Shown: one piece after another, positions 19,178 through 21,851 of the stretch | Layout of the letters: every line of letters starts with the position of its first letter | Position numbering within the stretch: position 1 is the stretch's first letter | DNA from: Gemmataceae bacterium | GTDB taxonomy: Bacteria > Planctomycetota > Planctomycetia > Gemmatales > Gemmataceae | Length of the DNA stretch: 64,000 nucleotides | Direction of reading: 5' to 3' | Assembly: GCA_019752375.1 (NCBI GenBank) | Contig: JAIEMG010000063.1 | Coordinates: 1 to 64,000 of the forward strand | The notes under the pieces: model-generated | Seen by the model: only the letters and a program-made list of their open reading frames with translations | Told to the model about the DNA's origin: nothing | Databases searched by the model: none | Program-made: the position numbers and the translations under genes

Positions 19178-19873
19178 ATGAACCCCAACCTTCCTCCGCT
19201 TCCCGAAACCCCGTACGACTCGCTGGGTGCTATCGTCCGCGAGAAGGTGATCGTGGATGATCAGACCTTCGTCATCGATCATCCGGGCGACTCGGATCGC
19301 TTATTGACCAACCCGGTCATCAAGAGCGCCTTCGCTGCCGACGAGTATTTGCCGTACTGGGCCGATCTGTGGCCGGTCTCGCGCATCCTGGCGAAAGTCA
19401 TCTTGCGCGAGCCGTGGCCTGAACCGAAGCCCGAAGCCATCGAAATCGGCTGCGGCCTGGGCCTGCCGGGCATCGCGGCACTGGCGCGGGGGCTGCGCGT
19501 GACGTTCACCGATTACGATGCCACCGCATTGCGCTTTGCAGCCGACAACGCGCGGGCCAACGGCTTCGAGAACTTCCGCACGCTCCAGTTCGACTGGCGT
19601 GCGCCGCCGGCGGACCTGTGTGCCCCGGTGATCCTCGTTTCCGACTTGCTGTACGAGCTGCGCAGCGTGGCACCCGTAGTCGCGATGATCAAGCAGATCA
19701 TGTTGCCAGGCGGCGTCTGCCTGTTGACGGATCAGGATCGAGTGCCATCGCACACGCTTCGGGAAATGTTGCCGACGGCGGGAATGACGTACACCACGCA
19801 AGCGATGAAGGCAGGCGAACCGGGGGGACGGCGCGTGCGCGGCACTCTGTATCGGATTACGCATGCGACATGA
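19178..19873 (+). CDS. Class I SAM-dependent methyltransferase (Methyltransf_16-like)
   Basis: 231 residues. The SAM-binding loop EIGCGLGLPGIAAL lies at about residues 88-101, followed by TFTDYDATALRFAADNARANG and the motif IV region ILVSDLLYE. The preceding YWADLWPVSRILAK is typical of the NNMT/METTL lysine methyltransferase-like family. Substrate is unknown; in this family it is often a lysine side chain or a small amine. No clear Shine-Dalgarno is seen. A TATAGA (19165-19170) just upstream may be a -10 element, which would make the leader very short. Confidence 0.75.
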   Translation: MNPNLPPLPETPYDSLGAIVREKVIVDDQTFVIDHPGDSDRLLTNPVIKSAFAADEYLPYWADLWPVSRILAKVILREPWPEPKPEAIEIGCGLGLPGIAALARGLRVTFTDYDATALRFAADNARANGFENFRTLQFDWRAPPADLCAPVILVSDLLYELRSVAPVVAMIKQIMLPGGVCLLTDQDRVPSHTLREMLPTAGMTYTTQAMKAGEPGGRRVRGTLYRITHAT

Positions 19874-19945: not shown

Positions 19946-20458
19946 ATGCAGACGCTCCGCTGGAGCCTGGGAACGCTGATCGTCCTGGGCGCCGTCGCCA
20001 TCGGGCATACCGAGCCGACGGAAGCAAAGGTCGAGATCAAGGTCGTCAAGTTCGCCGGCCTGGCGCAAGCCGTGCGCGAACGGGCAGGCAAGGTCGTCGT
20101 CGTCGATTTCTGGGCCGATTTCTGCATTCCGTGCAAGAAGCGCTTTCCGCACCTGGTCGAGATGGCCAACAAGTACAAGGACCAGGGCTTGGCTGTCATC
20201 TCCGTGAGCGTCGATGCCGATCCACACAAAAAGGAAGTGCAGGACACGGCACTCAAGTTCCTCCAGAACCGGAAGGCGACGTTCCTGAACCTGATGCTCG
20301 ACGAGCCGCCCGAGTACTGGTCGCAGAGGCTCGGCATCAAGGAGATCCCCTGTGTCTTCGTCTTCAACCGCGACGGCCGGTGGGTCCGGCTCGGCGGCGA
20401 GGACGTGTCGTCCGAAGACGTGGAGAAGCTGGTCGTCGAGTGGCTCAAGCAGAAGTGA
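19946..20458 (+). CDS. Exported TlpA-type thioredoxin-fold protein (CxxC)
   Basis: 170 residues. The ATG at 19946 follows GGAGGAGGGA; an upstream TTG is less likely. A signal sequence (LGTLIVLGAVAIGHTEP) targets the protein to the periplasm. The thioredoxin fold carries the redox motif WADFCIPCKKRFPHL at about residues 53-67, then LAVISVSVD and a cis-Pro region IKEIPCVFVFNRDG. Such proteins reduce or exchange disulphides outside the cytoplasm. The next gene is a close paralogue ending in the same VEKLVVEWLKQK, so this is a tandem duplication. The difference between the two at the first active-site Cys is the main point of interest. Confidence 0.85.
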   Translation: MQTLRWSLGTLIVLGAVAIGHTEPTEAKVEIKVVKFAGLAQAVRERAGKVVVVDFWADFCIPCKKRFPHLVEMANKYKDQGLAVISVSVDADPHKKEVQDTALKFLQNRKATFLNLMLDEPPEYWSQRLGIKEIPCVFVFNRDGRWVRLGGEDVSSEDVEKLVVEWLKQK

Positions 20459-20465
20459 GAACATC

Positions 20466-20993
20466 ATGACGATCGTGAGTCGCAAATCGGGCGTGCTCGC
20501 GCTGGCGCTGCTCGCCGGTGTCATCGGCGCCGCCGATGCACCGACGCCAAAGGTCGAAGTCAAGGTCGTCAAGTATGCGGAGCTATGTAAAGTCGTCCGG
20601 CAGCATATGGGGCAGGTCGTGCTGCTCGATTTCTGGGGATTGACCTGAATTCCCTGCGTCAAGAAGTTTCCGCATCTGGTCGAGATGCACCAAAAGTACG
20701 CGTCGCAGGGCCTGGTCGTGATATCAGTCAGCATCGAGGAGGAACGACAGAGTAAGAAGGACCAGGAAGATGTGTTGAAGTTCCTTCAGAAACGCAACGC
20801 AACCATGACGAACCTGGTCCTCGACGAATCGTCGGAAGTGTGGGCAGAGAAGCTGGGCGCGGGATTGCGGCCGTTGGTCTTCGTCTTCAACCGTGACGGC
20901 CGCTGGGAACGCTTCGACGCCACCGTGCTGGGCGAGGACGACGGCGACGCCAAGGTCGAGAAGCTCGTCGTCGAGTGGTTGAAGCAGAAATAA
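20466..20993 (+). CDS. Candidate selenoprotein: TlpA-type thioredoxin with UGA at the first redox Cys
   Basis: 175 codons from ATG 20466 to TAA if TGA at 20646-20648 is read through. Reading gives a signal peptide (VLALALLAGVIGAADA), then DFWGLT-TGA-IPCVKKFPHL. The TGA falls exactly where the upstream paralogue has Cys of CIPC, so decoding as selenocysteine would give UIPC. Downstream codons are intact for 115 residues and match the paralogue to the end (FVFNRDGRW, VEKLVVEWLKQK) with no frameshift. A hairpin with a GG-starting loop follows the TGA. Sec replacing a redox Cys in thioredoxin-fold proteins is well established in bacteria. The alternative is a fresh nonsense mutation. Standard gene callers would split this into 20466-20648 and 20685-20993. 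Confidence 0.65.
20672..20688 (+). promoter_or_regulatory. Candidate bacterial SECIS hairpin
   Basis: GCATCT-GGTCG-AGATGC forms a perfect six-pair stem with a five-base loop starting GG. The loop begins 29 bases after the in-frame TGA, inside the usual distance for bacterial SECIS elements, where SelB requires a G early in the apical loop. TTT/AAA pairing extends the stem below a small internal loop. In the all-Cys paralogue the matching bases (GCACCTGGTCGAGATGG) pair poorly. Confidence 0.5.
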
Positions 20994-21048: not shown

Positions 21049-21369
21049 ATGGTCCTTCTCGATTTCAGCATGGCGCCGCTGGGCAGGGGTGAGAGTGTCG
21101 CGGCCTATGTGGCGCGTTGTCTGGAAATCGTGGCTGCCAGCGGCCTGGACTACCGACTGCACGCGATGGGCACCACGCTGGAAGGGGAGTGGGACGAGGT
21201 ATTCGCCGTGGTGCGGCGCTGCTTCGAGGCGTTGAAGCCCGATTGCGAGCGCATCAGCGTTTCGATCAAGGTCGACTACCGCACCGGTCCCGGCGGCCGG
21301 CTCGACAGCAAGGTGCGCCACGTGCAAGACCTGGTGCAGCAGCCGCTCCGGACAGGAAGCTCAACATGA
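21049..21369 (+). CDS. MTH1187-family thiamine-binding protein
   Basis: 106 residues from ATG 21049. The protein matches the MTH1187/YqgV (DUF77) family: MVLLDFSMAPLGRGESVAAYVARCL, LHAMGTTLEGEWDEVFAVVRRC and the C-terminal SVSIKVDYRTGPGGRLDSKV. Members form ferredoxin-like tetramers that bind thiamine or related ligands in the cytoplasm. The stop codon overlaps the next start as ATGA, so it is translationally coupled to the flavin reductase gene. The ribosome binding site is weak. Confidence 0.8.
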   Translation: MVLLDFSMAPLGRGESVAAYVARCLEIVAASGLDYRLHAMGTTLEGEWDEVFAVVRRCFEALKPDCERISVSIKVDYRTGPGGRLDSKVRHVQDLVQQPLRTGSST

Positions 21370-21851
21370 CGGACACCGATCCGCAACGACAGCTCGCGGC
21401 TGCCCTGGGCCGGGTGGCCAGCGGCTTGTTCATCCTCACCGCCCGCCACGGTGAAGCCGAGACCGGGCTGCTGTGCAGCTTCGTGCAGCAATGTTCGTTT
21501 CAACCGCCGCGGATCAGCATCGCCATCAAGCCCGACCGCGAAGTCGCGTCCTGGCTGACCGAAGGCGCCGGCTTCATCCTGAACATCCTCGACGACAACC
21601 AGACCGATATGGTGGCCCACTTCGGCCGCGGCTTCCGTGCGGGTGAACCGGCCTTCACGGACCTCGACTTGAAGCGCTCGGCTGACAATTCACCAATCTT
21701 GAGCGAGTCCTTGGGCTACCTCGACTGCCGCGTGGTGAGCCGGCATGGCGCGGGCGATCATGACTTGTTCATCGCCCAGGTGGTCGGCGGCGCGATGCTG
21801 AACGAAGGGCAGCCGATGGTCCATGTCCGGAAGTCAGGATTGCATTACTGA
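21366..21851 (+). CDS. Flavin reductase-like FMN-binding protein
   Basis: 161 residues. It has the split-barrel flavin reductase fold with LGRVASGLFILTAR at the N-terminus, GLLCSFVQQCSFQPPRISIAIKPDREVASWL and GFILNILDDNQTDMVAHFG, as in FMN reductases and flavoredoxins. It probably reduces FMN or transfers electrons from NAD(P)H to a partner, in the cytoplasm. The ATG overlaps the stop of the thiamine-binding gene (ATGA). A partner oxygenase is not evident next to it. Confidence 0.8.
   Translation: MTDTDPQRQLAAALGRVASGLFILTARHGEAETGLLCSFVQQCSFQPPRISIAIKPDREVASWLTEGAGFILNILDDNQTDMVAHFGRGFRAGEPAFTDLDLKRSADNSPILSESLGYLDCRVVSRHGAGDHDLFIAQVVGGAMLNEGQPMVHVRKSGLHY

Follow-up and report, generated by a model that had tools for sequence, protein, structure and literature searches.

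A TlpA/ResA-like thiol-disulfide oxidoreductase of a Gemmataceae bacterium with a probable selenocysteine at its active site, encoded next to a cysteine paralogue

Table 1 of PMC13188914 comprises 119 prokaryotic selenoprotein families, including UxxC thioredoxin, thiol-disulfide isomerase-like (TlpA-like) proteins, and Redoxin. The thiol-disulfide isomerase-like selenoproteins (PF13905 / cd02966, UxxC) were first listed in work on the Sargasso Sea (PMC1088965) and also appear in tables of PMC9312934 and PMC13188914. Other selenoproteins were reported from marine planctomycetes in 2016 (PMC4807772). Our search, mainly of open literature, found no published description of a TlpA-like selenoprotein from Gemmataceae or Planctomycetota.

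The window (the whole 64,000-nucleotide stretch of Gemmataceae DNA analyzed here) contains a reading frame that runs from ATG 20466 to TAA 20991–20993 and is interrupted by a single internal stop, the TGA at 20646–20648. The features of the locus are the following.

19178–19873, + strand: upstream methyltransferase gene, syntenic with many Sec-form loci of relatives
19946–20458, + strand: Cys paralogue in tandem (CxxC) and sister of the Sec copy; it too has an apparent signal peptide
20123–20125, + strand: TGC that encodes the first CxxC residue of the Cys paralogue, opposite the TGA of the Sec gene in the alignment
20466–20993, + strand: Sec-form gene of a TlpA/ResA-like thiol-disulfide oxidoreductase, 175 residues, predicted Sec at residue 61 (UxxC), apparent signal peptide (from the ORF, homologue alignment, Pfam, and AlphaFold)
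20646–20648, + strand: in-frame TGA taken as selenocysteine, at the first Cys position of CxxC (alignment)
20655–20657, + strand: retained codon (TGC) of the resolving Cys of UxxC (alignment)
20672–20688, + strand: SECIS-like hairpin (GCAUCU-GGUCG-AGAUGC) that begins 23 nt past the UGA and is rare in Cys homologues
21050–21369, + strand: downstream thiamine-binding gene (MTH1187/PF01910), start approximate
21363–21851, + strand: downstream flavin reductase-like gene (PF01613) that is syntenic with most Sec-form loci; start approximate

The Cys paralogue and the Sec gene lie on the same strand, separated by 7 nt, and their proteins are ~53–56% identical. The active sites align as FWADF-C-IPC (Cys paralogue) and FWGLT-U-IPC (Sec gene). 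The alignment thus agrees with a sequence-only reading of this DNA, which had placed the TGA exactly at the first redox Cys, encoded by TGC in the tandem paralogue. On a different contig (C291, L054) the host genome has a further TGA copy that carries this hairpin as well, and there is an additional Cys copy elsewhere (C364, L055). Among 43 Sec-form loci, a methyltransferase neighbor is present at 21 and a flavin reductase neighbor at 29. As one or both of these neighbors are common to many loci, the orthology of the Sec forms is supported.

The Sec protein scores above the Pfam gathering thresholds for AhpC-TSA, Thioredoxin_8 (PF13905), and Redoxin. Its AlphaFold model (pLDDT 90) is most similar among PDB structures to ResA/DsbE-like proteins (best matches 4nmu, 1st9, and 3gl3), and the best PDB sequence matches of the profile are of the same kind. 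From the model and the alignment together, the protein has a thioredoxin fold in which [CU]xxC begins the first active-site helix, opposite a conserved proline. Positions 61 (U/C), 64 (C), and 136 (P) are invariant in the alignment; the proline is presumably cis. By inspection, both window proteins and most homologues have an apparent signal peptide, and the Sec protein is probably exported. The sequence-only reading had called the protein a thioredoxin. This is borne out for the fold and its UxxC site; the profiles and the structure place the protein with TlpA/ResA and not with classical TrxA. There was no match to PF00085 at E <= 0.001, and the classical thioredoxin model TIGR01068 gave 20.9 bits against a cut-off of 96.8. 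The NCBIfam equivalogs for ResA, TlpA, DsbE, and StoA gave at most ~55 bits (cut-offs 123–230). NF047660 did not match at E <= 0.001, and NF041054 matched the Cys paralogue and related copies with 23–33 bits against a cut-off of 300. No NCBIfam model scored above its cut-off for the members of the Gemmatales clade that were tested.

We consider it very likely that 20466–20993 encodes an exported TlpA/ResA-like oxidoreductase with an attacking Sec (UxxC), whose UGA is decoded by way of the hairpin. SelB, bound to the hairpin at 20672–20688, would deliver the Sec-tRNA-Sec that decodes the UGA at 20646. A selenolate of low pKa could then reduce or exchange periplasmic disulfides, with the second Cys of UxxC as the resolving residue. 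The Cys version next door would have arisen by local duplication. Direct observation covers the position of the codon, its conservation, the hairpin, the machinery genes, and the phylogeny; Sec insertion, export, and redox function of the product are what we infer.

For the comparison of homologues, 59 relatives and then 102 genomes of the order Gemmatales were used, which gave 136 distinct homologues whose DNA was fetched. By named records the clade belongs to Gemmataceae/Gemmatales; the Isosphaeraceae homologues that were found carry Cys. The codon at the first active-site Cys is TGC in 74, TGT in 18 (Cys in 92/136 altogether), TGA in 43, and AAT in one. The column is therefore Cys or TGA only, apart from the AAT row, which is a degenerate third copy. 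Such a third tandem copy (L024, L069; genome G003) has lost the active site (AAT, no CxxC, FWNTWNVPA), and its frame is still open. Stops elsewhere in the gene would have spoken against Sec. Within the matched stretch of the 136 homologues there is no TGA outside the first-Cys codon; one match, from genome G090, also has a TAG in its extended stretch. That 43 homologues have TGA at just this codon is well outside what chance would give.

The hairpin consists of a 5′ arm (20672–20677, GCATCT), a loop (20678–20682, GGTCG), and a 3′ arm (20683–20688, AGATGC). In a 180-nt context every stem pair has a probability of at least 0.988. It is a stem-loop right after the UGA, inside the coding region, with a small G-containing apical loop, as is typical of a bacterial SECIS. 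A search of the window against Rfam gave no match; to our knowledge, Rfam holds no bacterial SECIS family. The consensus in the TGA genes is GCAUCU-GGU(C/U)(G/C)-AGAUGC. Of 43 TGA rows, 42 can form at least five of the six stem pairs and 38 can form all six; among 93 non-TGA rows, the counts are 16 and 1, respectively (Fisher 5e-27 for all six pairs). The outermost pair is changed on both sides, from G-C to C-G, in seven rows of one clade, which may be a single event. One TGA homologue (L120) is without the common hairpin; it has other strong hairpins after its UGA, and its genome (G087) has tRNA-Sec.

Because the stem coincides with codons of the conserved residues PHLV[E/Q]M, protein conservation could mimic it, and the Cys rows serve as the control. 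The codon for the same His residue is CAT in 39/42 TGA rows versus 8/37 Cys rows, of which 29 have CAC. For the same Val residue, GTG occurs in 0/42 TGA rows versus 24/64 Cys rows. Either codon, CAC or GTG, disrupts stem pairing or changes the loop. It appears from these codons that synonymous choice in the TGA genes is constrained to preserve the hairpin; codon bias could make some contribution to the pattern. In the tandem Cys paralogue the same element is degraded to 4/6 pairs, which is not significant alone and hints at a decayed SECIS.

The genome of the host, an uncultured planctomycete, contains tRNA-Sec with the anticodon UCA (74.9 bits), SelB (378 bits), and SelD (287 bits, contig C273). 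The SelD region (C273:2351-3274) lies inside a long ORF of 853 aa and is probably fused to another domain; the SelD of many relatives has one in-frame TGA instead. SelA was not found in the host metagenome-assembled genome (MAG), which is 92% complete and in 391 contigs; there are just weak SelA-like PLP proteins. One of these (C138; L153, G000), within ~3 kb of the tRNA-Sec gene, was considered as SelA and dropped, as it reaches 37 bits only and has an apparent export signal at its start. Since SelA is present in most relatives, we read the gap as incompleteness of the MAG, which is not proven. Given the completeness and fragmentation of the assembly, the missing SelA is weak evidence against Sec. 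Across relatives, TGA copies occur in 20/45 genomes that have one or more credible Sec genes, as against 0/14 genomes that have none (one-sided p ~0.001, kinship ignored). The column of TGA codons, the TGA-specific hairpin, and tRNA-Sec, SelB, and SelD strongly support the sequence-only reading of this TGA as Sec at the redox Cys; its search list of Sec genes was confirmed except for SelA.

The missing SelA would also fit suppression or a partial change of the code, in which UGA is read as Cys or Trp and no Sec is involved. We regard this as very unlikely. Within the family, TGA occurs at the redox Cys codon alone, and it goes together with the hairpin and with Sec genes in the genome. In addition, the adjacent Cys gene terminates with TGA (20456–20458), which shows that TGA is a stop in this host.

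In some relatives a tRNA-Sec-like match was considered as a second tRNA-Sec and rejected because it bears a Cys anticodon. Such tRNAs with the anticodon GCA are found at L044:2011-2105 (genome G024), L200:1610-1703 (G042), L201:1834-1929 (G081), and L202 ~1727-1824 (G082). They give 51–56 bits against the Rfam tRNA-Sec model and have U73 and a long variable arm; the D stem is in most cases 6 bp long, with a loop of 4 nt. They resemble selC* tRNA-Cys. The list of phyla with selC* in PMC7609411 does not include Planctomycetota. A Cys-form TlpA-like gene is followed, ~60 nt downstream, by one of these tRNAs; two belong to a genus in which Sec and Cys have switched in the TlpA-like gene.

An intact Cys paralogue in tandem might suggest that the second copy is a pseudogene, decaying after a nonsense mutation that followed duplication. 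We find this highly improbable. Dozens of orthologues across many genera share the position of the TGA, contain no further stop, and have a dedicated hairpin. Downstream of the TGA the second Cys is kept and the frame 20466–20993 is intact up to the last residue, as had been noted from the sequence. Between related TGA genes dN is well below dS in this part; the codons 3′ of the TGA are under purifying selection. It is just as improbable that translation ends at the TGA, leaving a truncated N-terminal peptide, and restarts at ATG 20685 to give a second product, a fragment of 102 residues. A mechanical ORF at 20685–20993 does exist; its start codon lies within the 3′ arm of the hairpin, its product would be without the entire active site, and both halves are conserved as one domain. 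An error of sequencing or assembly in a TGC/TGT codon, conceivable in a fragmented MAG, has a negligible chance, as the same TGA recurs in dozens of genomes, in independent assemblies from different samples, and again in the host genome (L054).

With Sec taken as the meaning of the TGA, the two forms have changed places often. On the 136-row tree there are 16 changes of the Sec/Cys label, at least 6 of them forced by well-supported branches; a careful 40-row tree has 9, at least 8 of them forced by supported branches. These trees indicate that switching is frequent in the Gemmatales clade. The Sec copy of the window groups with the adjacent Cys copy as its sister (97/92), and the nearest neighbor of the pair is a Sec copy at the same locus in genome G018 (92/85). 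On this topology, the simplest reading is a local duplication followed by a change from Sec to Cys in the window lineage. Gene conversion between the window copies could give the same picture. The genus g21 has an independent Sec/Cys sister pair (99/97; genome G021), and in g14 tandem Cys and Sec copies of five species form one supported clade (100/99). Adjacent Cys and Sec pairs thus appear to have at least three independent origins (the window lineage, g14, and g21). In g18, Sec is found in two species and Cys in two, and both Cys species keep tRNA-Sec.

The proposal that a Cys form and a Sec form stand side by side as a comparison pair holds: 19946–20458 adjoins 20466–20993, and such pairs recur in relatives. 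We see about an even chance that the arrangement, produced each time by duplication and divergence of one copy, is recurring and selectively maintained, with Se-dependent and Se-independent partners that differ in substrates or redox potentials. Within genera, Sec and Cys have switched repeatedly at a single syntenic locus in genomes that keep the Sec machinery; these cases provide natural comparison sets, which bear on why cells pay for selenocysteine in a periplasmic oxidoreductase. Annotation that stops at TGA would truncate or discard such genes, of which 43 were recovered from one order. The hairpin, earlier proposed from its G-rich loop and its SECIS-like distance, is real and specific to TGA genes; this very clear SECIS signature could seed an annotation model.

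The closest described relatives are the thiol-disulfide isomerase-like selenoproteins, which share the TlpA/ResA-like fold, Sec at the first Cys, an in-gene SECIS just downstream, and PF13905. As far as the descriptions set them apart, the Gemmatales clade differs from the Sargasso type in its length of ~170 residues, its methyltransferase–flavin reductase locus, its nearly invariant hairpin sequence, and its recurring tandem Cys copies. The bacterial Sec-thioredoxins (PF00085) have UxxC and a thioredoxin fold in common with the window protein, whereas the latter is TlpA/ResA-like, has an apparent signal peptide, and falls far below the TrxA cut-offs. NF041054 (ResA-like WAxxUGC motif protein) and NF047660 (HUIPC) are likewise thioredoxin-like selenoproteins, with scores below the cut-off and no match, respectively. 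The Cys enzymes ResA, TlpA, and DsbE agree with the window protein in fold, in where CxxC lies, and in the conserved proline that precedes the last strands; in the window protein, Sec would replace the first Cys. Selenoproteins with a thioredoxin fold and UxxC are already known, and the Gemmatales clade is an added member.
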